Assembly: GCF_001457475.1 (NCBI RefSeq) | Contig: NZ_LN831029.1 | Span: forward strand, 4,154,001-4,218,000 | Source of the DNA: Achromobacter xylosoxidans | GTDB taxonomy: Bacteria > Pseudomonadota > Gammaproteobacteria > Burkholderiales > Burkholderiaceae_B | Direction of reading: 5' to 3' | DNA: 64,000 nucleotides | The notes under the pieces: generated by a model | Database searches by the model: none | Told to the model about the DNA's origin: nothing | Seen by the model: the letters and a program-made list of their open reading frames with translations, nothing else | Shown here: piece by piece, positions 4,559-60,337 of the stretch | How positions within the stretch are numbered: the first letter of the stretch is position 1 | Layout of the letters: every line of letters begins with the position of its first letter | Program-made: the position numbers and the translations under genes

Positions 4559-6093
4559 GTCCGCAATGCCTCCTGCTTGTCCTGGGAATACAGGCCCGCG
4601 TGGGCCAGTTCGGATTCGACGCGCGAATGCCACAGCGCGCGGCGGCGGGCGCGGGCCTCGGCCGCCAGGGTGGGTTGGAATACCGCATCGGTGGCGGCGG
4701 TCTGGCGCGCGGCCTGCAACGATGGCCACAGCAGGCCCGACGCCCCCGCCAGGAACGCCGCGCCGCGCAGGCTGGCGCGATCGGCCTCCTGCATGCGGCG
4801 GATCGGTATCCCCAGCAGGTCCGCCTGGATGCGCAGCAACGGATCGCTGCTGGACAGGCCTCCGCCCACCACCAGTTCCGACACCTGCACGCCCGATACT
4901 TCCTCGTCCGCCTCGATGCAACTGGCCACCGAATGGGCGATGCCTTCCAGGATCGCGTAGGCCACTTCGGCCTGCGTGGTAGCCATGGAGATGCCGGTGA
5001 GCGAGGCGCGCGCGCCGGCCGCCATGCGCGGCACGCGCAACCCGGTCAAGGCCGGGATGAATGTCACGCCGCCCGCCGATTGCGCGGTGGCGGCCAGTTC
5101 ACTGATCTCCTGCGCGTTCCTGAACCACTTCAGCTTGTCGCAGACCCAGTTCAAGGCCGAACCGGTGGTGGCGACGAAGGTCTCGACCGCGAAGTGCGAC
5201 ACCTGGTCCTGGCGCCGCGCCGTCATCGTCAGCGAGCCTTCGTAGCGGCCGCTGTTGACGGGCGCCTCGGGGCCGATGATCAGGTCGACGAAACTGCCCG
5301 TGCCATGCACGCACATCGCCTGCCCGCGATCCAGGCAGCCCAGGCCCACCGCGCCCGCGTGCTGGTCGCCGGCCGACGCCCGTATCGGCACGGCAAGGCC
5401 CAGGAGGTCCGCGCGCGTCTGGCCGAAATCGTCGGCTTCCTGGCGCAAGGCCGGCAGCAGCTCGCGCGGAAACTCCAGCGCGTCGATCCAGTCCAGGTAG
5501 TAGCGGTGCCCGGACAAAACATAGGCGCCGGCCGAGGTGGCATTGGTGGGCGTCGTCACGCATTCGCGGCGGTCCGACATATGCCATAGCAGCCAGGTGT
5601 CGACGGTGCCGAACGCCAGCCGGCGCTCGCGCCAGGCCTGCGCCACGGCCGGTGAATCGCGCAGGTGGCGCGCCGCCCACAGATACGGCGAACGCACACC
5701 GGCCGGGCGGCCCACCTGCTCCAGCAGGCGCGGGTTCCAGGCGGGCGCCAGGCGATCGAGTTCATCGACATAGCGCGTGTCCTGCCACACCATGGCCGGC
5801 ACCAGCGCGCGGCCCGTGGCGGTATCCCACAGCACCGCGGTGGCGCGCTGCGTGGCCAATGCCAACGCCACGATGGCCTGGCCGTCGCGACGCGCCTGCG
5901 CGATCACCTTGCGGCACACCTGCAGCGTTCTTTCGAGAATCGCATCGGCATCCTGCTCGACCACGCCGGGGCGCGGCGTATCGACCTGCAGGGCCAGGTA
6001 TTCCTGGCCCGACACGTGACCGTCGCCCGACACCAGGGCGGCGCGTGTCCCCGAGGTGCCGGCGTCGATGGCCAGGATCACGTTGTTCGACAT
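4555..6093 (-). CDS. FGGY-family kinase, probable glycerol kinase
   Basis: 512 aa. The N-terminal ATP-binding motif ILAIDAGTSGTRAALV, the central SAGDQHAGAVGLGC and HGTGSFVDL segments, and the second FGGY signature ending in VVGGGLSSSDPLLRIQADLL are all present. Position between a transporter and glpD makes glycerol the likeliest substrate, but it differs from canonical GlpK in the GDQ region (GDQHA rather than GDQQA), so another polyol or sugar alcohol is possible. Start chosen at 6093 for the GGAGA site five bases upstream; an ATG at 6111 overlaps the transporter stop. Confidence 0.85.
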   Translation of the reverse strand: MSNNVILAIDAGTSGTRAALVSGDGHVSGQEYLALQVDTPRPGVVEQDADAILERTLQVCRKVIAQARRDGQAIVALALATQRATAVLWDTATGRALVPAMVWQDTRYVDELDRLAPAWNPRLLEQVGRPAGVRSPYLWAARHLRDSPAVAQAWRERRLAFGTVDTWLLWHMSDRRECVTTPTNATSAGAYVLSGHRYYLDWIDALEFPRELLPALRQEADDFGQTRADLLGLAVPIRASAGDQHAGAVGLGCLDRGQAMCVHGTGSFVDLIIGPEAPVNSGRYEGSLTMTARRQDQVSHFAVETFVATTGSALNWVCDKLKWFRNAQEISELAATAQSAGGVTFIPALTGLRVPRMAAGARASLTGISMATTQAEVAYAILEGIAHSVASCIEADEEVSGVQVSELVVGGGLSSSDPLLRIQADLLGIPIRRMQEADRASLRGAAFLAGASGLLWPSLQAARQTAATDAVFQPTLAAEARARRRALWHSRVESELAHAGLYSQDKQEALRT

Positions 6094-6107
6094 GTTGTCT
6101 CCGTGCG

Positions 6108-7565
6108 TCATCTTGCGGTTTTCCCCAGCGCCGGGTCGAGCGCGGGCAGGTTCTCGTCCCCCTTGAACTGCGGCGCGCCGGCTTCGTTGTCCGGATTGAT
6201 GCCGCTGCGGGTGGGATCCCATTTGATGGCAAAGCAGATGATGCTGGCCGCCAGCGGGACGGCAGACAGGATCAGGAAGGTCTTCTCCAGGCCATAGCTT
6301 TCGCGGAACAGCGGGAACACCAGCAGGCCGACCGCCGCGCCGATCGAGCCGAGCGCGCCGATGACCCCGTTGGCGCCAGCCCGCAATTCACCGCGGAACG
6401 ACAGCGACGACAGGCTCTTGCCGTTGGCGCCCGGACCGCCGGAATGGAACAGGATGAACAGCGACGGCACCGCCACCGCCAGCCACAACGGCATCTTGCC
6501 GTGGAAGGTGCCCAGGATCAGCAGCATCAGGAAGACGGCCGCAAAGCCGAACGCCGAGGCGCGCCGCAGGCCCAGCTTGCGACCGATGTAGGGCGACATG
6601 AAGCCGCCGAAGATGCCGAAGATGTTGAACACCAGCGCGCCCACCGTGGCGTAGACGAAGTCCTTGCCGAACAGTGCCGCGCTGATGAGCGGCAGGTACC
6701 AGCCCACCGCGAAATACTGGATGGACTGGCCGATCTGCACCGTGGCCGCCAGTATCGTGCGCGGCAGGTACACGCCGCGGAAGATCAGCAGCACATTGGC
6801 CAGGCCGCGCCGCGCCTGGTTGACCACCGGCACGCGCTCGTGCGGCGGCGCCGCCGTGAACGGCTGGCCGTAGATGCGGGTCATCGCCACGGCCGCCTCG
6901 TCGACGCGCTCCTTGCGCGCCAGCCAGATCGGGCTTTCGACCATGTAGCGCAGTTGCAGCACCAGGATGGCCAGCGCGAACACCGCGGTGGCCGCGACCG
7001 AATAGCGCCAGATCGCGTCGCCCACTTCCCATGAATGGAACAGCAGCGCCAGCAGCAGATTGGAGCAGACCGCCGTGTACCACATGCCCTGCCAGGTGTT
7101 CAGGCGGCTCTTGAGCCTGACGGGCGTGAATTCCGCCAGCACCGCCATCGCGATGGCGAAGTCGATGCCGTAGGCCGCGCCCACGAAGAAACGGCCCGCC
7201 AGGATGACGTCGAACGACGGCGCGAACACCACCAGCAGCGCGCCGATCAGCGCCAGCAGCTTGGCCGTGATGAGAGGCCGCATGCGGCCCCAGCGATCCG
7301 CCATCCAGCCGCCGATGGGATTGAAGGCGATGGCCACCCAGGACGCGAAGGACGTCATCAACGCGACCTGGCCCGCGCTCAGGCCAAGGTCGCGCGTCAT
7401 GGGCCCCAGGCCCGCGCTGAGCGCGGAATTGGCGAATGCATCCAGGAACAATCCGCCCAGGGCGAGCCACCATATCAGGCCGGCCCGGCCGACGATGCCC
7501 GGACATGAATCGATATACGCGATGACATCGTCGATGCCACGCAGCTTGACGGGTAATGATTGCAC
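6108..7565 (-). CDS. MFS transporter, sugar-porter type
   Basis: 485 aa with about 12 hydrophobic segments. The MFS loop 2-3 signature is GGWMADRWGRMRP, followed by the RFFVGAAYGIDFA helix and a long central loop rich in charged residues. First gene of the glycerol operon, so it probably imports glycerol, glycerol-3-phosphate or a glycerol-derived compound; it resembles sugar/metabolite-proton symporters more than GlpT. The GTG start (7565) has AAGAGGAG about 7 nt upstream, and that ribosome binding site lies in a potential hairpin (see leader entry). Confidence 0.85.
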   Translation of the reverse strand: MQSLPVKLRGIDDVIAYIDSCPGIVGRAGLIWWLALGGLFLDAFANSALSAGLGPMTRDLGLSAGQVALMTSFASWVAIAFNPIGGWMADRWGRMRPLITAKLLALIGALLVVFAPSFDVILAGRFFVGAAYGIDFAIAMAVLAEFTPVRLKSRLNTWQGMWYTAVCSNLLLALLFHSWEVGDAIWRYSVAATAVFALAILVLQLRYMVESPIWLARKERVDEAAVAMTRIYGQPFTAAPPHERVPVVNQARRGLANVLLIFRGVYLPRTILAATVQIGQSIQYFAVGWYLPLISAALFGKDFVYATVGALVFNIFGIFGGFMSPYIGRKLGLRRASAFGFAAVFLMLLILGTFHGKMPLWLAVAVPSLFILFHSGGPGANGKSLSSLSFRGELRAGANGVIGALGSIGAAVGLLVFPLFRESYGLEKTFLILSAVPLAASIICFAIKWDPTRSGINPDNEAGAPQFKGDENLPALDPALGKTAR

Positions 7566-48983: not shown

Positions 48984-49281
48984 ACACGCCGCTCCACTTC
49001 AGGAACGGCTTTCGCACCGCCTCATGGAACAATGTCGCGGCCCTGGCGTTGTGGTCCAGCTGGGCGCGACTCTCGATCCCGCAGGCGTTGCGCACGAACT
49101 GCGCCGCGTGCTGGTTGTCGCTCACGCCCTGCGGGGCGACGCCGATGCGGGACACAACCCACTCCTGAAACTTCGCGTTGCCGCACATCATGGCCGCCAC
49201 GCGAGACAGCGCCGCCCCCTTGCCAGCCGCAGGCGCGCGCCTCGCACGCACCGGGCGCCCCGAATCTCCGCGCGTCAGCAT
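48976..49281 (-). CDS. Hypothetical early protein, 101 aa
   Basis: Basic N-terminus, then CGNAKFQEWVVSRIGVAPQG and SRAQLDHNARAATLFHEAVR; the second half looks like a compact helical domain found in early phage proteins. Function unknown. Confidence 0.6.
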   Translation of the reverse strand: MLTRGDSGRPVRARRAPAAGKGAALSRVAAMMCGNAKFQEWVVSRIGVAPQGVSDNQHAAQFVRNACGIESRAQLDHNARAATLFHEAVRKPFLKWSGVYA

Positions 49282-49802
49282 CCCGCCCTCGCCTTGTCGC
49301 CTGCGGCGCGCACTACGTTCCGCTCAAGGCGCTGGGCCTTCTCCACAATCTTGCGGCACTCGATCACGATGGCGGAGGCGTCTTCCTCACAGATATCACC
49401 ATCCAACAGCGCCTCAATCGCCACTGCCGACAGTTCCCCGTTGAGGTGGGACATTTCCATGACTTTCTGGCGCGCCGCGTCGACCTCGTTCGGGTGCTGG
49501 GGCGCCGGCGGCAGAATGTTGGCGGACACACCGTGCCGCAGGTTCAGCGCCAGCAGCCAATCCCGCGCGTAGGCCTCCCCGCCCTGCTTCTCCATCATCC
49601 ACTCGGTGGCGAGTTCGAACAGGTCCAGAGACATGGATTGGCCCTTCACCTTGCGCAGCTTCTGGCGCAGGGTTTCTGCGTGCATCGACACGCCGCGGCG
49701 GTTGGTCATGAACGCCGCCAACTCTTCAACGCCACCGGGCGTCTTCTGAACGCTGATGTACAGCGCGTCATGCGGGTCAATCTGGGTATAACGATGGGTC
49801 AT
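49275..49802 (-). CDS. CII-type regulator (CP76 family)
   Basis: 175 aa. HDALYISVQKTPGGVEELAA, then SMHAETLRQKLRKVKGQSMS and LELATEWMM-like helix, matching the P2/CP-76 CII-type regulators rather than lambda CII. First long gene of the early right operon; expected to promote lysogeny or control the switch. Confidence 0.7.
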   Translation of the reverse strand: MTHRYTQIDPHDALYISVQKTPGGVEELAAFMTNRRGVSMHAETLRQKLRKVKGQSMSLDLFELATEWMMEKQGGEAYARDWLLALNLRHGVSANILPPAPQHPNEVDAARQKVMEMSHLNGELSAVAIEALLDGDICEEDASAIVIECRKIVEKAQRLERNVVRAAGDKARAGC

Positions 49803-50935: not shown

Positions 50936-51166
50936 TCACGCCACCTCCTGTTGGTCCGCTCCCCCAGGAAGACCGCGGTAGACGTTGTCAAAGGTGAGAT
51001 CCAGGCCTAGAGTCTTGGCGTACTCAATAAGTCGCTCTGCCACTTCGGGCGGGATCGTCTGGCCTCGCTCATAGTGGTAGATGTTCCCCTGGGTCATTCC
51101 CAAACCAGCAGCTAGTGCCGCTTGGGTCAATCCAAGCCTTTGGCGGATGATAGAAATTGGTCGCAT
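50936..51166 (-). CDS. Cro-like repressor
   Basis: 76 aa helix-turn-helix: IIRQRLGLTQAALAAGLGMT then GNIYHYERGQTIPPEVAERL. Divergent from the CI-type gene across an operator region. Confidence 0.85.
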   Translation of the reverse strand: MRPISIIRQRLGLTQAALAAGLGMTQGNIYHYERGQTIPPEVAERLIEYAKTLGLDLTFDNVYRGLPGGADQQEVA

Positions 51167-51172
51167 ACATCA

Positions 51173-51243
51173 AATAGTGCCACTAGTTCAAGGCCCTAGT
51201 CAATAGCGCCACTCGTTGCACACTTTAATAGCGTAGCTATTCT
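51173..51243. promoter_or_regulatory. Right operator (OR): three 15-bp sites, PR and PRM
   Basis: Sites AATAGTGCCACTAGT (51173-51187), AATAGCGCCACTCGT (51202-51216) and AATAGCGTAGCTATT (51227-51241). PRM: TTGCAC (51216-51221), 16-nt spacer, TATTCT (51238-51243), so transcription should begin at about 51250, the A of the CI ATG. PR on the minus strand: TTGACT (comp. 51198-51203) and ACTATT (comp. 51173-51178), spacing 19. Confidence 0.75.
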
Positions 51244-51249
51244 CTGCCC

Positions 51250-51969
51250 ATGACTCGTTCGACACCCCGCAAAGCCAAGATCCTCCCCGTCCATCGGGAG
51301 GAAGCGGCTGCATTGAAGACGATCTATCAGGATCGAGTCAAAGTATCGCAGGCTGCCTTCGGAGCCGATTCGGGAGTCGGAACGCAGGGAGCCGTGTGGC
51401 AGTTCCTTAACGCCGCCACTCCACTGAACGCGGAAAAGGCCGTCGCCTTTGCCACTGCCTTGAACGTTCCAGTAAGGAGCTTCAGCCCCCGGCTGGCTGA
51501 CGAAATCGAGGGGCTGGCGGTAGGCGTCGACTTAGCACCAGCAGACCCAGGCTCTATCCATGCATCTGTGCGGATGGTTGACGCCAAGGCATCCGCCGGC
51601 AGAGGCGCATTAGTTCTTACCGCGGAGTCGGGGAAGGACCTGATGTTTCGGAGGGACTGGCTCCTAAAGAACGCCTCAAAGCCGAGCGACGTCTTGGCCT
51701 TCCGAGTCGACGGCGACAGCATGGTTGACCTGCACATCGTCCATGGCGCCGTGGTGTTGGCAAACCGCAACAAGCGCGAGCCGGTCAACCGAAAACTCTT
51801 CATCGTATGGTGCGATGGAGAGCTGTACGTCAAGCAGTTGATCAAATCAGGCGACAAATGGTTCGCACGGTCGCATAACAAGGACAAGGCCAGCGAGTAT
51901 CCAGACATACCCTTAAATGGCAGGGACCGAATCGAAGGGCGAGTCTTCTGGTGCGGGTTCGAACTGTGA
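51250..51969 (+). CDS. CI-type repressor, S24 peptidase
   Basis: 239 aa. N-terminal HTH (VSQAAFGADSGVGTQGAVWQ) and a C-terminal LexA-like domain with catalytic Ser in RVDGDSMVD and Lys in FIVWCDGELYVKQLI...region. Cleavage site probably near DAKASAGRG (Ala-Gly region at residue ~115). No Shine-Dalgarno, and the promoter start falls on the ATG, so the mRNA is probably leaderless, as lambda cI. Confidence 0.9.
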   Translation: MTRSTPRKAKILPVHREEAAALKTIYQDRVKVSQAAFGADSGVGTQGAVWQFLNAATPLNAEKAVAFATALNVPVRSFSPRLADEIEGLAVGVDLAPADPGSIHASVRMVDAKASAGRGALVLTAESGKDLMFRRDWLLKNASKPSDVLAFRVDGDSMVDLHIVHGAVVLANRNKREPVNRKLFIVWCDGELYVKQLIKSGDKWFARSHNKDKASEYPDIPLNGRDRIEGRVFWCGFEL

Positions 51970-53672: not shown

Positions 53673-53738
53673 ATGACCCGCATCATGATCTGGCTCTTAG
53701 TAGTGCTAGTGGCCCTCTGGGCCACGCCAGCCTACTGA
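53673..53738 (+). CDS. Hydrophobic 21-aa peptide
   Basis: MTRIMIWLLVVLVALWATPAY with AGGAG six bases upstream and a terminator directly after it: a compact, self-contained gene. A single membrane helix, the look of small toxic or regulatory membrane peptides. Function unknown. Confidence 0.6.
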   Translation: MTRIMIWLLVVLVALWATPAY

Positions 53739-53785: not shown

Positions 53786-53828
53786 AATAGCGGCACTATT
53801 GACAATAAAAATAACTAGTGGCACTATT
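53786..53828 (+). promoter_or_regulatory. Left operator (OL) and PL promoter
   Basis: AATAGCGGCACTATT (53786-53800) and ACTAGTGGCACTATT (53814-53828), clear copies of the sites beside cI. A consensus -35 TTGACA at 53799-53804 and ACTATT 18 bases on define a rightward promoter covered by both sites, the lambda PL arrangement. Confidence 0.75.
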
Positions 53829-53903: not shown

Positions 53904-53952
53904 CGCTCCTTAACAACCTGCCGCCGATGTTGCTCGCCCCACCTGTGGGGCG
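53904..53952 (+). promoter_or_regulatory. nut-like antitermination site
   Basis: CGCTCCTTAACA (53904-53915) matches the boxA consensus CGCTCTTTAACA at 11 of 12 bases. A perfect hairpin CGCCCCAC/GTGGGGCG follows at 53935-53952. It lies ~75 bp from PL, the expected place. No N-like gene was recognised. Confidence 0.6.
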
Positions 53953-54131
53953 TTCCCCGGCTCAATCGCACCTACGGGCATGGCCGTAGCTCTGCGCGGT
54001 GTCCCTACCGTATCCAGCCCGACATAGCGCGGTACACGGTCAACAGGGTGAGGCGTAGACGGCCAAGAGCAAAAACGGTCACGCCGGATGGAATGCCGGC
54101 AACCCGATTCCGCTGAAAAGCGGGTTTCGGC

Positions 54132-54166
54132 CAGCGCTGCGGGTCAGCGCTTACCGAAGCCACCCA
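54132..54166 (+). repeat. Hairpin element, copy 1
   Basis: AGCGCTG CGGGT CAGCGCT (54133-54151) followed by TACCGAAGCCACC. A close copy is at 55491-55529 and a more distant one at 58080-58150. The 237 bp between the nut-like site and 54190 otherwise holds only small inverted repeats (CCGGATGGAATGCCGG, AACCCG/CGGGTT). Confidence 0.5.
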
Positions 54167-54189: not shown

Positions 54190-54594
54190 CTACGGACGCG
54201 GGGACTCATCCGTCGACAATTGCCATATGGAGCTGCCTGCTCGGCCAAGCTCGACGGAATATTTCTCGCACAACGAACGGACGGAAGCCTCGTCAAGCTC
54301 CTGACCTGTAAAGGAAATCGAACCGCCGCAGGTCAGGAACAGGTACAGCGCAGCCAGCTCTTCCAATCTCGATGATTCGGACTGCACATTGAATATTGCG
54401 CCATCTGCCTCGTTAACCTGGATCTCCACGCAGGGATCTTCGCTCTCACGATCTTTCACGTAGAGGTAGGTCCACGAGCGGCTGCTCACGGGAAACGAAT
54501 CACCGTCGGTATCGACATCCCGCCCAGGGCCATAAAGCAAGTCCAGAAAACACCTGAAGTCGGGTCGATCCCCGACAACGGTCACTGTGTACAT
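54190..54594 (-). CDS. Hypothetical protein, 134 aa
   Basis: Starts MYTVTVVGDRPDFRCFLDLL; includes LEELAALYLFLTCGGSISFT and acidic stretches. No membrane segment or known domain. Opposite to PL transcription, so it has its own promoter. Confidence 0.6.
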   Translation of the reverse strand: MYTVTVVGDRPDFRCFLDLLYGPGRDVDTDGDSFPVSSRSWTYLYVKDRESEDPCVEIQVNEADGAIFNVQSESSRLEELAALYLFLTCGGSISFTGQELDEASVRSLCEKYSVELGRAGSSIWQLSTDESPRP

Positions 54595-54744
54595 GCGTTC
54601 CTCACGATCTAGCTTGTTTGCCCGCGTAGTGTGGAAAATGGGCAGTCATCATTGCCAGCGAATGTCATCGCTAATTGAATAACTGCGCCCTATGGTGCCC
54701 TCTACCTCCACTCATACGCGCTCCAGTGCGCCATTGTTTCATTC

Positions 54745-55158
54745 TCAACTGCCCGGCTCACGCCTCACGGCGTATTGGCGCTGAACCCGCCGCGTGCCCA
54801 GCGCCAGCGTAGTGCCGACAATGGCACCGACGGATAGCCCGTGAAATAGCACAACCACGCCATAGAGCCTTGCAAATGCAAGGCCCACTAGGCCGCCACA
54901 GACCAACCCGCTGATTATCAGCCGCGGGAGCGTGTTCACGGCCTTCCCAGTCCAATAAACCCATAGTCCGAAGACAACGACGGCCAGAGGGAGATAAATG
55001 AAAGCGGTGACAAATGTCATGAAAAGCGCAGAAAGCCATGGCTCCGTACCCGGCTGCTTGTCCCAATACCACATCAGCGAGTAGCCCACCCAGACGATAT
55101 AGCTGGAAAACGGAGCCAGCAAAAAGACAAGTATCGCTCTAGCGAAGTCAGTAGACAT
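54745..55158 (-). CDS. Membrane protein, 137 aa
   Basis: Four hydrophobic segments: AILVFLLAPFSSYIVWVGYS, LSALFMTFVTAFIYLPLAVV, LPRLIISGLVCGGLVGLAFA, and the LFHGLSVGAIVGTTLAL region. Basic tail. Lysogenic conversion or exclusion is possible; no family recognised. Confidence 0.65.
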   Translation of the reverse strand: MSTDFARAILVFLLAPFSSYIVWVGYSLMWYWDKQPGTEPWLSALFMTFVTAFIYLPLAVVVFGLWVYWTGKAVNTLPRLIISGLVCGGLVGLAFARLYGVVVLFHGLSVGAIVGTTLALGTRRVQRQYAVRREPGS

Positions 55159-55353
55159 ATCGGTCTCCTTGGCGTATCGCTCAATCTTTCCGGGCCAGCT
55201 TAGGTTAAATCAGAAACGCAGGCCGGGCACATTCGAGATCCACCAGCCACATGTCGACCCTCAAGAAAGTCGGCCCAGATATCAGTTCCAGCTCATGCCC
55301 CGCGTGCGAGGTATCGGCAGGCGCTGTTGCCTGATCCCCTTGGAGACTTCCCC

Positions 55354-55428
55354 ATGCTCGCCGCCTTCATACGGTTCCTGGAAGAACTGATCGACGTTGC
55401 CAACTTCGGCCGCGACCTCAGCAAGTAG
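55354..55428 (+). CDS. 24-aa peptide, copy 1
   Basis: MLAAFIRFLEELIDVANFGR then DLSK, with TTGGAG upstream. Nineteen or more of 24 residues match the peptide at 57948 (differences conservative: L/F, F/L, V/I, L/F). Conservation of protein rather than only DNA, plus a ribosome binding site in both, supports translation. Predicted amphipathic helix. Confidence 0.7.
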   Translation: MLAAFIRFLEELIDVANFGRDLSK

Positions 55429-55490
55429 CACCGAAAGCCATGCCCAGCACGTCGGAGCGGCGCCGGGAAGCCGGCCAGTGTGGATTTCGT

Positions 55491-55529
55491 CCAGAGCTGC
55501 GGGTTAGCGCTTACCGAAGCATCACCACC
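55491..55529 (+). repeat. Hairpin element, copy 2
   Basis: GAGCTGCGGGTTAGCGCTTACCGAAGCATCACCACC, related to 54132-54166. Follows the 24-aa gene as a unit. Confidence 0.5.
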
Positions 55530-55539
55530 CGACCAATCT

Positions 55540-55803
55540 CTACGGCTCACCCGTAAAGTGAGTCTGCAATTGGCCTCTCAACTGCCTAAGGGCCGCTCGT
55601 CGTGCGCGGTCTTCCGGCTCAATATGTGGATGCGGATTGATGGCTACGGTCCGTTGGAACCCCTCGAAGCCTTCAGGCAATTGCTCTAGTTCCTTCTCCA
55701 CCCAAGCCAATAGGCGGGCCTGCTCATCGGGCCGACTGCCCACCAAGAATCTAAGCGCGTCGGTGTAGGCGCGGATATAAGAGTCTGCGTCATGAATGTT
55801 CAT
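55540..55803 (-). CDS. Hypothetical protein, 87 aa
   Basis: Starts MNIHDADSYIRAYTDALRFL; helical, LLAWVEKELEQLPEGFEGFQ and DRARRAALRQLRGQLQTHFT. No family recognised. Opposite to the peptide genes. Confidence 0.6.
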   Translation of the reverse strand: MNIHDADSYIRAYTDALRFLVGSRPDEQARLLAWVEKELEQLPEGFEGFQRTVAINPHPHIEPEDRARRAALRQLRGQLQTHFTGEP

Positions 55804-56021
55804 CGCTCCTCCCGGTGAATGAGTCAAGCGCAAACCCTATCACCCACCAAAAGGTCATGAAAACACCATCCTGGCCCAGTGCCTAAGCACTAGACGGCAG
55901 TGTTGGAATTGCGCCCGATGTGACCTTTAGAAACGCTGCCTCGCCATTCGGTGGGAACGCCAGATGCTGAGTCCCGCCAGCCTGCCGCACTCGCGGGACG
56001 GCGGACCGACTGGAGATCACA

Positions 56022-56543
56022 ATGGAACGAGATAACTCGCAAGCGAACGAACACTTGTTGGACTGGCTCAGAGACGCGCACGCCATGGAGGAGCAAGCGG
56101 AAACCATGCTGAACAGCATGCTTTCGCGCATCGAGAGCTACCCAGACCTTCGCCAACGCATCCAGCAACACGTTGAAGAGACACGCGAACAGCAGCGTCT
56201 GGTGCGCCAGTGCATTGAGCGCCGCGGTGGCGATACATCGCTGCTCAAAGACTTGACGGGCAAGGCCATGGCGACTTTTCAAGGATTCGCCGGCGTATTT
56301 GCCTCTGATGAAGTAGTCAAAGGCGCGATGTTCAGCTTCGCCTTCGAAAACCTGGAGATTGCGGCCTACAGCCAGCTCAAGGAAGCGGCCGAATTCGTCG
56401 GTGACACCGAGACCGCGGCAGTCTGCGAACGCATTCTGGCCGAAGAACGGGCCATGGCCCAGTGGCTCGAACACAATTCTCCCGCCCTGGTGCGACATTT
56501 TCTGGCCCGCGCCAATGATCCAGACGCATTGGCAAAGCGCTAA
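56022..56543 (+). CDS. DUF892 ferritin-like protein (YciF type)
   Basis: 173 aa four-helix ferritin-like protein: LLDWLRDAHAMEEQAETMLN with the first Glu/His ligands, VEETREQQRLVRQCIERRGG, GAMFSFAFENLEIAAYSQLK and ILAEERAMAQWLEHNSPALV. YciF homologues are stress proteins encoded with a manganese catalase (yciGFE-katN in Salmonella); here a catalase gene is 400 bp away. Confidence 0.85.
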   Translation: MERDNSQANEHLLDWLRDAHAMEEQAETMLNSMLSRIESYPDLRQRIQQHVEETREQQRLVRQCIERRGGDTSLLKDLTGKAMATFQGFAGVFASDEVVKGAMFSFAFENLEIAAYSQLKEAAEFVGDTETAAVCERILAEERAMAQWLEHNSPALVRHFLARANDPDALAKR

Positions 56544-56569
56544 TTTTCACCCCACCGATGGAGGCCAGC

Positions 56570-56749
56570 ATGCCGTCCCCCGTGCCGATGCCTAGCGATC
56601 TAAACCCTGGCGATGAGGCCGCCCCTGGGACGCCCGGCACGGGCGACGTACCATGTCCCGCGTGTCAGGGCAGCGGCAATATCGATCGGAAACCCTGCCC
56701 TAACTGTGGCGGAACCGGCAAGGTCGTGCGGGGTATCGGCGGCGCATGA
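56570..56749 (+). CDS. DnaJ-type zinc-finger peptide, 59 aa
   Basis: Two CxxCxGxG repeats: CPACQGSGNI and CPNCGGTGKV. GGAGG precedes the ATG at 56570. Single zinc site of the DnaJ cysteine-rich type; a small stand-alone version whose role is unknown. Confidence 0.7.
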   Translation: MPSPVPMPSDLNPGDEAAPGTPGTGDVPCPACQGSGNIDRKPCPNCGGTGKVVRGIGGA

Positions 56750-56789
56750 CGACCTGGACTACCAGGGCGGAAACATCAGGAGTAGCCCG

Positions 56790-56861
56790 ATGAGTAGAAG
56801 GGCCACCAATAGCCACATCATGAATTTTCTGTTTTTCATGGCGAACTCCAAGAGTCGCTAG
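56790..56861 (+). CDS. 23-aa peptide
   Basis: MSRRATNSHIMNFLFFMANS then KSR, AGGAG seven bases upstream. Short hydrophobic centre flanked by basic residues. Confidence 0.45.
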   Translation: MSRRATNSHIMNFLFFMANSKSR

Positions 56862-56945
56862 GCGGATCATGGCGCAGGCGCCGTACCCTTCCAGCTTCGC
56901 AGCTTGGGGCACCGCGCCTGCCGTGCGCAGCAGTGACAGATCTAA

Positions 56946-57836
56946 TTATTCCTCGCGGCGATCCGTCACCACGCTGCCGTCGCCAAGTTCGGTCCCGGTC
57001 ACCGGGTCGGCAGCAGGATCCGACGCGGTACGGGCGACCATGGCTTGCAACGCCAACGTTTCATCCTCGGTAAGACCTACCGATGCCAGGCCGTCTCCGT
57101 CGATCGCGCATTGCGCATCGCGCTCAGAAACGTAGGTGAAGTTCTCGTCGCTGTTCCACGATCCACGCATATCGCCCTCGCCCTGCGACATATTGAAGTA
57201 GACGTTCGCAAAGCTGGGGTCGCCTGGCAGCTTTCCGGGCGGGAAATTCGGTTCCATCGAATACAGCGCCTTCTCGAAAGAACGCTGATGCGACACTTCA
57301 CGCGTCATGAGAAAGCCCAGCGCTTCTTTGACGCCCGGATCGTCAGTGGCGTTGATAAGCCGTTCATAGATGATCTTGGCCCGCGCCTCGGCGGCGATGT
57401 TCGAACGCAGATCCGCAGAAGGGTCGCCGATGGTATCGATATAGCCGGCATTCCACAGCTGGCCGCCGGAGTTGACTAGGGCCGGCCCGCCGCCGAACAA
57501 CACCTGCGTCACGTGCGAATCATTGCCCGGCCCGTTCAGGCGGCGATAGATCTCGGCTTCGGATTCGGTAGCCTCGGCCAGTACGCCCTTCGCGCCCTTG
57601 TTGAGCATGGCCACCAACGTACCGATAACTTCCAGGTGGCTCAGTTCCTCGGTCGCGATATCAAGCAGCATGTCTTTTCGTCCCGGGTCGTCCTCCGCCA
57701 GCGCCTGAGTGAAGTAACGACAGGCAGCTGCCAATTCCCCTTGAGGCCCCCCGAACTGCTCCAACAGGTTGGCCAGCCCTGGGTTGGTCTGCGCGACGCG
57801 CACGGTGTACTGCAAGCGTTTGTTGTGAGCAAACAT
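56946..57836 (-). CDS. Manganese catalase
   Basis: 296 aa, normal family length. Di-Mn ligands visible: IATEELSHLEVIGTLVA (ExxH), SNIAAEARAKIIYERLI and MTREVSHQRSFEKALY (ExxH). Breaks down hydrogen peroxide in the cytoplasm, without haem. ATG at 57836 with GGGAG seven bases upstream. The C-terminal 60 residues, after GSWNSDENFTYV, are variable. Divergent from the second 24-aa gene. Related in role to KatN of the yciGFE-katN group. Confidence 0.93.
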   Translation of the reverse strand: MFAHNKRLQYTVRVAQTNPGLANLLEQFGGPQGELAAACRYFTQALAEDDPGRKDMLLDIATEELSHLEVIGTLVAMLNKGAKGVLAEATESEAEIYRRLNGPGNDSHVTQVLFGGGPALVNSGGQLWNAGYIDTIGDPSADLRSNIAAEARAKIIYERLINATDDPGVKEALGFLMTREVSHQRSFEKALYSMEPNFPPGKLPGDPSFANVYFNMSQGEGDMRGSWNSDENFTYVSERDAQCAIDGDGLASVGLTEDETLALQAMVARTASDPAADPVTGTELGDGSVVTDRREE

Positions 57837-57947
57837 GGTCATCTCCCGATTTCCCGTCCTCCATTGGCCGGGTCGGAACGCTGGAAGCAATTGCCGTGCC
57901 GCAACGTAAGACTTGCCCCCTTTCTTAACAACATATGGAGCCCGACC

Positions 57948-58022
57948 ATGTTCGCCGCGCTTATCCGCTTCCTGGAAGAATTGATCGATATTGCCAACTT
58001 CGGCCGCGACTTCAGCAAGTAA
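57948..58022 (+). CDS. 24-aa peptide, copy 2
   Basis: MFAALIRFLEELIDIANFGR then DFSK, GGAG upstream. Paralogue of 55354-55428. The ~35 bp after the stop are also similar (CACCG-AAGCC-TGCCC-GCACG-CGG-GCGGC). Confidence 0.7.
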   Translation: MFAALIRFLEELIDIANFGRDFSK

Positions 58023-58052
58023 CACCGCAAGCCTTGCCCTGCACGCCGGGGC

Positions 58053-58141
58053 GGCTTCGGAGAGCGGGCCGCACCGCCACGTCACCGGCGCTGAAAGTGA
58101 CTTTCTGAAGTTACTGGGCCTCTGACCCGCTCCCCGAAGCC
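58053..58141 (+). other. Structured element after the second peptide gene
   Basis: GGCTTCGGAGAGCGGG (58053-58068) pairs with CCCGCTCCCCGAAGCC (58126-58141), 15 of 16 bases; nested inside is AGTGACTT/AAGTTACT (58096-58115). Likely folds as RNA in the left transcript. It ends in CGAAGCCTCACCACC, the tail of the hairpin elements at 54132 and 55491. Confidence 0.55.
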
Positions 58142-58169
58142 TCACCACCGCGCATCCGCGCAAATCCCC

Positions 58170-58298
58170 ATGACCTACATCGAAACCCTCGCCTGGGGCC
58201 TGGGCCTGTTCGCGTTCGCGCGGCTGGTGCTGGCGCCCCTCGGCGACTACCTCTCACGCCGCTACGTCGCGGCCGATCCCTGGAGCGCCACCCAATGA
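58170..58298 (+). CDS. Small membrane protein, 42 aa
   Basis: One membrane helix (IETLAWGLGLFAFARLVLAP), then LSRRYVAADP. Stop overlaps the next start (ATGA). Part of the left operon. Confidence 0.6.
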   Translation: MTYIETLAWGLGLFAFARLVLAPLGDYLSRRYVAADPWSATQ

Positions 58299-58528
58299 AT
58301 ACGATCAGCGCAAGCGCGCCCCCGGCACGCATCCGCCCCCTGCGCATCGCCGCCAAGGCCGCCCGCACGCTGGGCGACTTCGTCGCACGCCGTGACCACG
58401 CCGGCAAAGGCAACTGGAGCCGGGATGCGGATATCCCTTGGTGGGCGTGGCCTGCCGCCGCCGGCCTGGCCGCGTTCTTCTTCTTTGGCCCGCAGGCGCT
58501 GGGCTGGATCCTGCGTAGCGTCTTATGA
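58295..58528 (+). CDS. Small membrane protein, 77 aa
   Basis: Basic N-terminus (PLRIAAKAARTLGDFVARRD) and C-terminal membrane helix (WPAAAGLAAFFFFGPQALGW). Overlaps both neighbours by 4 nt. Confidence 0.65.
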   Translation: MNTISASAPPARIRPLRIAAKAARTLGDFVARRDHAGKGNWSRDADIPWWAWPAAAGLAAFFFFGPQALGWILRSVL

Positions 58529-58782
58529 ACGGAATTGACTTCATCCTGCGCGACCGCGCTGGGTGGATTCCGCCCGTGCCCTTGCCTCGCCGCCGGCTAC
58601 GCTGGGAAGACCCCAAGGCCGAGCCTATACAGCCCGAGGAAATCGCATTTATCCAGGGCGCGCGCGGGCGACTGACCACTTACAACCTGGCCGAATGCTA
58701 CGGCGTGTCGCCGCAGACCATCTGCAACATATGGCGAAAAGGCAAAGTCGCGAAACCAGCTATTGCAGACGGGCCAAGGTGA
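58525..58782 (+). CDS. Helix-turn-helix protein, 85 aa
   Basis: C-terminal HTH: GRLTTYNLAECYGVSPQTIC then NIWRKGKV. Probable left-operon regulator or DNA-binding accessory protein. Convergent with the gene at 58760, overlapping 23 bp. Confidence 0.7.
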   Translation: MNGIDFILRDRAGWIPPVPLPRRRLRWEDPKAEPIQPEEIAFIQGARGRLTTYNLAECYGVSPQTICNIWRKGKVAKPAIADGPR

Positions 58783-59434: not shown

Positions 59435-59542
59435 GATGCGTCTCCTTTGGCTGCGCATCGTATCCCAACCCTCCCAAGGTGTCAGCCGCCCCGCCAGGCA
59501 GGCCAGCCCGCTTTTGTCCACTCACATCAATCTGAACAGACC

Positions 59543-60337
59543 ATGGCAAAAAAATCGAAAGACGTTTATGGCGCTGAAGGCCAAAGCAACCTGCTCAACT
59601 TCGACCCCGCCAAACTGACCCTCGTCACCGACGAAAACAGCCCGCTCTACGACGCGCGTGTACATCTGCCTGTGGACGAAGCGCTCGCCCGCAATATCGA
59701 CTACCAGGGCGTGCTGGAACCCATCGCCGTATCCAAGAACCCCGAGACAGGCGAAACCGAGGTGGTATTCGGGCGCCAGCGCGTCAAGGCGGCCCGACTC
59801 GCCAACGAATGGCGGCGCCACCGCGGCGAGCCCGAGAGACAGATTCCGGCTGTTGTGTACGCCGGCAAGCGGCAATCGGCTCTGGACGCCATCGCCAGCG
59901 AGAACGAGGCCCGCACAGCCGACAGTCCGCTCGGCCGCGCCGAGAAGATGCGCCGGCACCTTGCCCTCGGGAGAGGCGAAGACCAGATCGCTGTGATCTA
60001 CAACTGCTCCGTCGCTACGGTGCGCGACACGCTCGCACTGCTGGACAGCCCCAAGGTCGTGCAGAACGCCGTCGAGGCGGGCCAGATCACCCTCACGCAC
60101 GCCAAGGCACTTGCCAAGCTGCCTGTCGCCGAGCAACGCACGAAGGTCGCCGAGCTGGTCCAGGCCGGCCAGGGCGTCAAGGCGCACGAACGCAGCCGCA
60201 AGCAGGCCGCCGTCATGGGCGAGCGCCCCCGCGTGAAATCCCGGAAGCAGATCCAGGCCGCCTTGGAAGCCTCCCAGGGTGACTACGCCGCCGCCCTGCG
60301 CTGGGTGCTGGGCGAAGAGGAAGGGGCTGCAGCGTGA
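59543..60337 (+). CDS. ParB-like protein
   Basis: 264 aa. N-terminal ParB/Srx domain: DYQGVLEPIAVSKNPETGET then VVFGRQRVKAARLANEW, the latter the GRQR phosphate-binding motif. Central HTH (GRGEDQIAVIYNCSVATVRD). Ends in a helical region. No ParA neighbour is seen in the window, so this is probably a stand-alone regulator of the left operon or a CTP-binding DNA clamp rather than a partition protein. Confidence 0.8.
   Translation: MAKKSKDVYGAEGQSNLLNFDPAKLTLVTDENSPLYDARVHLPVDEALARNIDYQGVLEPIAVSKNPETGETEVVFGRQRVKAARLANEWRRHRGEPERQIPAVVYAGKRQSALDAIASENEARTADSPLGRAEKMRRHLALGRGEDQIAVIYNCSVATVRDTLALLDSPKVVQNAVEAGQITLTHAKALAKLPVAEQRTKVAELVQAGQGVKAHERSRKQAAVMGERPRVKSRKQIQAALEASQGDYAAALRWVLGEEEGAAA

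Follow-up and report, generated by a model that had tools for sequence, protein, structure and literature searches.

A conserved 24-residue peptide gene in the early-left arm of lambda-like Achromobacter prophages, with a possible CIII-like role

Two 24-residue peptide genes and their family

Inspection of a 64,000 nt stretch of Achromobacter xylosoxidans DNA (contig NZ_LN831029.1, positions 4,154,001–4,218,000; hereafter the window) showed it to contain two short genes, each coding for a 24-residue peptide, here named copy a and copy b (Table 1). Both open reading frames (ORFs) are contained in a 125 nt direct repeat (55352–55476 and 57946–58070) with 83% identity, and the two peptides are identical at 20 of 24 residues. 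A first-pass annotation, made from the letters alone, had described the genes as near-identical and followed by a shared segment; the genes and the repeat are real, although 'near-identical' is slightly strong. Copies a and b are members of a family of protein-coding 24-residue genes of lambda-like prophages of Achromobacter. They sit in the arm between cI and the integrase gene (the early-left arm) and read in the same direction as cI and int. They are preceded by CI-type operator repeats and a structured leader and followed by three small genes (p42, p77 and p85), a ParB-like gene and the integrase gene. A peptide search of the A. xylosoxidans genome (6.8 Mb, one contig) detected copies a and b only.

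Of 43 Achromobacter genomes searched with a single sequence and with a profile, 18 held the peptide, in 26 copies with E < 1e-5; one more, degenerate copy (G042:C13) brings the total to 27 copies at 24 loci, 23 intact. Short partial matches of the profile search at E 0.03–1 were excluded from these counts. All named records with the peptide belong to Achromobacter, including A. pulmonis, A. dolens, A. denitrificans and A. kerstersii. The peptide was also present in at least 47 viral contigs of IMG/VR, a lower bound since the scan was limited to a pattern. Annotation can easily overlook ORFs of this length.

The 69 intact copies (62 different coding sequences, 53 different peptides) all have 24 residues and an ATG start, and 64 are preceded by a Shine-Dalgarno (SD)-like site. 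These selection counts leave out the broken or truncated copies L015, L019, L028 and L029, as well as L228, whose locus ends before the stop codon. Residues R7, D14 and F18 are invariant over the 53 peptides, while E10, L12 and N17 differ in one peptide each and E11 in two. The mean proportion of synonymous differences (pS) was 0.47, that of nonsynonymous differences (pN) 0.20, and pS exceeded pN in 1863 of 1891 pairs, the pairs being non-independent. Pairwise DNA identity was 0.68–0.83 inside the ORF and dropped to about 0.3 roughly 24 nt before the ORF and roughly 10 nt beyond its stop codon. Judged from these sequences, the peptide is selected as a protein. The first-pass annotation had suggested as much and had proposed a search for further copies in Bordetella and Achromobacter; copies were found in Achromobacter, and they are conserved as proteins. 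This conservation and recurrence indicate that the peptide is probably functional. It is a conserved phage micro-protein, to which the catalase gene lying between copies a and b is incidental.

Related forms are also found. In three further prophages (L130, L142 and L150) p77 is preceded by a divergent 25-residue form of the MIKFIEALLDILAPILSVLDRNGKL type (MIKF form), which two contigs (L204 and L216) hold beside the 24-residue form. Outside the genus, in the same family of bacteria, 22-residue relatives were detected in two prophages (L176 in G049 and L177 in G230), between a CI-like ORF and a p85 or ParB-like ORF (CI and ParB read by eye); L176 has the same gene order in another genus, its CI and integrase genes being read by eye. 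In both, a tRNA-Gly(TCC) gene adjoins the peptide, about 25 nt upstream in L176 (7116–7189, minus strand) and about 10 nt downstream in L177 (9662–9735, plus strand). Candidates L020, L021 and L022 were rejected as family members, the last two lying in long frames and the first having no start codon at the match and running on for 55 residues. A weak match outside the genus, L071/L178, was attributed to chance, since tblastn of 36 window prophage proteins had no hit at that locus and its surroundings look like metabolic genes. An order-wide profile search gave matches in three of 399 genomes, one of them the window's own and the other two in long frames. Tblastn with the 24-residue peptide found no match in plasmids or phages, and with the 25-residue form none in phages; such short queries may be limiting, as viral contigs do carry the peptide. 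A profile search of the PDB yielded 21 matches (best E 1.1), taken as chance, and the peptide was not described in the titles and abstracts of the open-licence literature searched.

The early-left arm, its leader RNA and its cargo

The minus strand of the window carries, at 22–42 kb, genes for tail fibre J, the tape measure, the portal and the large terminase. Next come replication genes, the CII-like and Cro-like genes on the minus strand, and the CI gene on the plus strand; the CII-like gene keeps the same position in related prophages. A 15-bp operator-like motif gave 11 matches with three mismatches at most, 10 of which are the two strands of five sites, against a mean of 3.3 and a maximum of 8 in 100 shuffled sequences. 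These sites are arranged as in an oR/oL layout, so that the presumed promoter pL would read toward the peptides. Its -35 box, TTGACA (53799–53804), was read by eye; the promoter scan did not flag pL. A very small hydrophobic ORF of 21 residues lies at 53673–53738 (plus strand). The integrase gene is found beyond the window (L031:17887–19128, equivalent to window 68887–70128) with a tRNA-Leu gene just behind it, and the integrase arm also holds a long ORF (L031:12893–14908, window 63893–65908) that by eye looks like a DNA cytosine methyltransferase gene.

Table 1. Coordinates of the prophage features discussed, in window positions
Feature	Position	Strand	Basis or remark
CII-like regulator, Phage_CP76 type	49275–49802	-	PF06892 E 2.1e-5, 24.9 bits (cut-off 26)
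Cro-like helix-turn-helix (HTH) protein	50936–51166	-	PF01381 E 7e-11; name 'Cro' from position
Three operator-like 15-mers, presumed oR	51173–51187, 51202–51216, 51227–51241 (51173–51241)		pattern AATAGYGSCACTAKT
CI-type repressor, peptidase S24	51250–51969	+	PF00717 E 5.5e-14; phrog_4
Two operator-like 15-mers, presumed oL, over presumed pL	53786–53828	+	downstream of cI and a PIN-domain gene
boxA-like site in presumed pL leader	53905–53916	+	GCTCCTTAACAA; matches also in 23 of 100 shuffles, chance possible
Burkholderiales-2 RNA	53923–53995	-	Rfam match, 93.4 bits (gathering 67.9)
R1 two-stem-loop RNA element	54105–54164	+	model from 15 loci
First cargo	54190–55158 (ORFs 54190–54594 and 54745–55158)	-	no Pfam family
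24-residue peptide gene, copy a	55354–55428, with stop codon	+	SD-like site; peptide MLAAFIRFLEELIDVANFGRDLSK
Second R1 copy, weaker, after copy a	55466–55523	+	30.3 bits, E 2.2e-4
Second cargo	55540–57836		five genes between copies a and b
87-residue ORF	first in second cargo	-	no Pfam family
DUF892/YciF-type gene	56022–56543	+	PF05974 E 4.5e-46
63-residue CxxCxGxG protein	56558–56749	+	under Pfam cut-off
Small hydrophobic ORF, 30 residues	56759–56851	-	very small
Mn catalase	56946–57836	-	PF05067 E 1.4e-80
24-residue peptide gene, copy b	57948–58022, with stop codon	+	SD-like site; peptide MFAALIRFLEELIDIANFGRDFSK
Folded element upstream of p42	58054–58140	+	18-sequence alignment
p42, p77, p85 (HTH-like)	58170–58782	+	conserved small genes 3′ of peptide; p85 HTH matches weak
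ParB-like protein	59513–60337	+	phrog_1033 E 1.2e-49, on frame from 59351

The presumed pL leader contains a boxA-like site, a Burkholderiales-2 match and a two-stem-loop element here named R1. Bordetella phage IFTN4 has GCTCTTTAACAA in the same place as the boxA-like site, and the Burkholderiales-2 stretch beside that site is common to nine Bordetella avium phages; the transcribed strand of this element may be the plus strand. In the R1 model 97.2% of the cells are paired, both sides change in 4 of 18 pairs, and one of 500 shuffles was as good. The hairpin noticed at 54132 in the first-pass annotation is real and corresponds to the second stem of R1, which (54122–54160) is 90% identical over 39 nt to 55482–55520 in the weaker copy behind copy a. 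A search of the 43 genus genomes with the R1 model returned 28 rows from 27 places, in 23 genomes. A plus-strand match was found upstream of the peptide in 37 of the 47 viral contigs (one, L191, weak), and 7 of 12 further stretches had matches, including G049 of another genus. No R1 match at E ≤ 1 was detected near cro and the CII-like gene (the pR side) in the window, nor was R1 found in the fetched stretch of phage IFTN4 (L164), though part of the leader is similar there. By analogy, the R1 and boxA-like leader would act in antitermination. The folded element upstream of p42 is about 90 nt long with long outer arms; both sides change in 3 of its 24 pairs, and a covariation term of +0.29 gives it weak support.

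The order of genes around the peptide is largely maintained. In 18 of the 24 genus loci p42, p77, p85 or ParB lie downstream on the same strand, and in 42 of the 47 viral contigs p42 and/or p77 follow the peptide at 0.3–2.9 kb; of the other five, L228 and L229 end close behind the peptide. Of the six remaining genus loci, four (L046, L048, L053 and L054) have a tRNA-Arg gene at a distance of about 5 kb or less, L039 has a tRNA-His gene no more than 2 kb away, and L052 has no tRNA gene nearby. A neighbouring tRNA gene is what one would expect of prophage remnants. A CII-like gene (PF06892, E ≤ 0.01) is present in 40 of the 47 contigs, over the cut-off in 30, and in all 40 cases it lies on the strand opposite the peptide, 2.8–8.2 kb upstream, across cI; some of the contigs counted are fragments. 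We take CII of phage 186 to be a member of this Phage_CP76 family, whose Pfam title names CII/CP76. Of 26 genus genomes with p77, 16 have the 24-residue peptide upstream of it (one frameshifted) and three the 25-residue form; the seven without a peptide indicate that it is common, not obligatory. In four of these seven no CII-like gene was detected by tblastn. In L135 and L044 other short, coding-looking tails, ending KFQGMLVQ or KFQGLLVQ as read from the DNA, lie upstream of the p42 element at the peptide's usual site, possibly representing an alternative small protein in the slot.

Seventeen slots, running from R1 to peptide or from peptide to peptide, were listed. They span 0.4–4.9 kb, and many of their ORFs are antiparallel to pL. 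Their contents differ; G016 and G031 have nearly the full slot in common (1.1 kb), and in six other pairs 0.2–0.35 kb is shared. Relatives of both first-cargo ORFs of the window are found in viral contig L189. The slot of G025 (L035:4232–7310) holds a reverse transcriptase gene, an Lcl_C-like target (under the cut-off), a template repeat at 6078–6203 and two variable repeats, whose mismatches in the repeat core (8 in one, 10 in the other) are all at A positions of the template. The element is likely to be a diversity-generating retroelement. PADLOC, run on 10 cargo and neighbour proteins, matched only HNH and reverse transcriptase proteins.

All five genes that the first-pass annotation had named between copies a and b are present, but its picture of catalase cargo between peptide modules does not hold as a rule; the peptide belongs to the early-left phage arm. 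A catalase gene occurs in nine of the 43 genus genomes and near the peptide in only two (G000 and G040), in G040 separated from it by a repressor-like ORF identified by eye. It was detected within the fetched flanks of one of the 47 viral contigs, L187, whose gene order is that of the window and which may come from the same or a sister strain. Given this rarity, we reject a catalase-bearing mobile element to which the peptide would belong; the catalase cluster looks like a rare passenger in the R1-to-peptide slot. No transposase or recombinase was found among the Pfam matches of the genes at 54–58.8 kb, and since the repeats are direct, coding and only 83% alike, a composite transposon or integron cassette was likewise discarded.

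Nor do the copies usually flank cargo: the peptide is mostly single, two being present in 4 of the 47 viral contigs (fetched flanks, motif scan) and at 3 of the 24 genus loci. Copy a is 0.96 identical to the copy of G037 and 0.86 to copy b, while copy b is 0.86 identical to copy a and equally to the copy of G040. Copy a is thus closer to G037 than to its neighbour, and simple local duplication around an insert is disfavoured. The G037 stretch resembles copy a up to about +100 (with ties from +61 to +100) and from there on copy b, which is how the entry of a cargo-plus-peptide unit by recombination between phages would look. The recombination around cargo suggested by the first-pass annotation therefore has some support, though neither as a rule nor as plain duplication. 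This mosaic and the partial R1 copy behind copy a are most simply explained if recombination joined in tandem two R1-cargo-peptide units that came from different phages. The pairs of peptides in G021 and G016 are 0.68 and 0.72 identical, respectively, those of G016 being separated by 4.9 kb and surrounded by few prophage markers; no second R1 was found between the peptides of either pair.

A possible CIII-like function and its alternatives

The claims made above on the prophage, the coding nature of the peptide and its position are much firmer than any on its function. Its size and place fit an analogue of lambda CIII, and a CIII-like function is the best choice: the peptide may be a minimal CIII analogue, directed at the membrane protease FtsH and favouring lysogeny, a reading we put forward tentatively and rate slightly short of probable. 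Lambda CIII is described in a passage of PMC1838920 as a 54-residue FtsH inhibitor of which a 24-residue amphipathic part is sufficient, and the same paper allows for CIII-like functions carried out by proteins of another primary sequence. CII of phage 186 is degraded by FtsH and RseP according to a passage of PMC7708051. The hydrophobic moment of 20 of the peptides was 0.64–0.82, a value matched by 0.2–21% of shuffles and by fewer than 5% in 14 of the 20. Under this proposal, transcription from pL after infection or induction would yield the peptide, with the boxA-like and R1 leader RNA enabling the polymerase to pass through cargo that is often antiparallel. Folded as an amphipathic helix, the peptide would shield an unstable CII-like activator from FtsH, as CIII does in lambda, favouring lysogeny. 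The catalase cluster would be passenger DNA in the slot between R1 and peptide, and tandem joining of two units from different phages would have left two non-identical peptides.

Several observations weigh against this proposal. The lysogen yield of phage 186 is reported, also in PMC7708051, to be unchanged by loss of ftsH. The window's own CII-like match falls under the Pfam cut-off; the p77 prophages of G039, G030 and G035 have a CII-like gene and no recognisable peptide; and the co-occurrence with CII, having been counted in peptide-bearing contigs, may reflect only phage lineage. The two window peptides, whose moment is reached by 5.2% and 7.6% of shuffles, are only borderline amphipathic; the 25-residue MIKF form, at 26–29%, is not amphipathic. 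The net charge of the 24-residue peptides is +1 to -3, mostly negative, that of the active CIII stretch +2. In the comparison with CIII by hhalign the probability of homology was 3–10% over 7–9 columns, and 6 to 56 of 400 shuffles scored as well. The CIII family, PF02061, was over the cut-off in none of 48 records (two weak matches) and was absent from the Pfam matches of 19 peptides at E ≤ 10, a search whose filters drop most weak matches; the sole Pfam hint was PSMalpha, in two of these 19 (best E 0.064). A wider version of the proposal is doubtful, namely that beta-proteobacterial lambdoid phages reduced or reinvented CIII as 24 free-standing residues which guard a 186-type CII and are expressed via a put-like, one-sided antitermination RNA bounding a cargo slot.

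The main rival reading makes the peptide a membrane-active or host-takeover factor of the early lytic cycle (Kil-like, modulin-like or type I toxin-like), with a helix that would act on the membrane or on a division protein. A small hydrophobic-amphipathic peptide would be at home in the pL arm, where annotations of lambda and P22 place kil next to cIII, and the PSMalpha hints and the presence of two different copies in some prophages point the same way. However, these hints are no better than the E value given above, and the invariance or near-invariance of seven residues suggests a specific partner, so that we regard this rival as rather unlikely. The constancy of the amino acids also speaks against a translated leader, the translation of which would control the folded RNA and p42-p77-p85. 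The folded element and p42 do directly follow the peptide in many phages, but the variable distance to p42 and p77 makes such a regulatory ORF improbable. It is more improbable still that the repeats matter as DNA only, serving as conserved linkers for homologous exchange of cargo between phages: the G037 mosaic, the varied slots with a single pair alike over nearly the full length, and the contigs with two peptides would all suit such linkers, yet most copies are single, and conservation is codon-shaped over the 53 peptides, with pN below pS.

To return to the CIII-like reading, these prophages have a 186-type CII and, in the position of cIII, a 24-residue peptide family that is a concrete candidate for it, small enough to be synthesised. 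If the reading is true, a lysogeny regulator can make do with very little sequence. R1 and the slot, in turn, bear on how such phages can carry passengers such as a catalase or a retroelement.

Comparison with known systems

In put antitermination, the RNA acts via the zinc-binding domain of beta′ and no protein factor is involved. R1, lying between the presumed pL and the early genes, resembles the put RNA of phage HK022 in its layout, which a passage of PMC9378689 describes as two adjacent stem-loops in the early leader, present at both early promoters. It differs in that a prophage usually has a single strong R1, which is on the pL side, and that the window has no pR copy.

Like lambda CIII, itself small, the peptide is encoded in the pL arm, between cI and int, and a CII-type gene lies beyond cI. 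In contrast to the 54-residue CIII, it is free-standing with 24 residues, mostly negative in charge and of no detectable homology, and the CII gene found here is, unlike that of lambda, of the Phage_CP76 type. SpoVM of Bacillus, described in PMC1838920 as a similar FtsH inhibitor, is likewise a short amphipathic inhibitor peptide, but it belongs to sporulation, and the likeness is one of description. Kil is comparable by position, as a small peptide of the pL arm, and the phenol-soluble modulins are comparable as short amphipathic peptides, although the PSMalpha match is weak. Finally, the catalase cluster and the other cargo recall prophage morons in occupying a variable slot, often antiparallel; unlike those of morons, the slot seen here is bounded by the R1 RNA on one side and by the peptide gene on the other.

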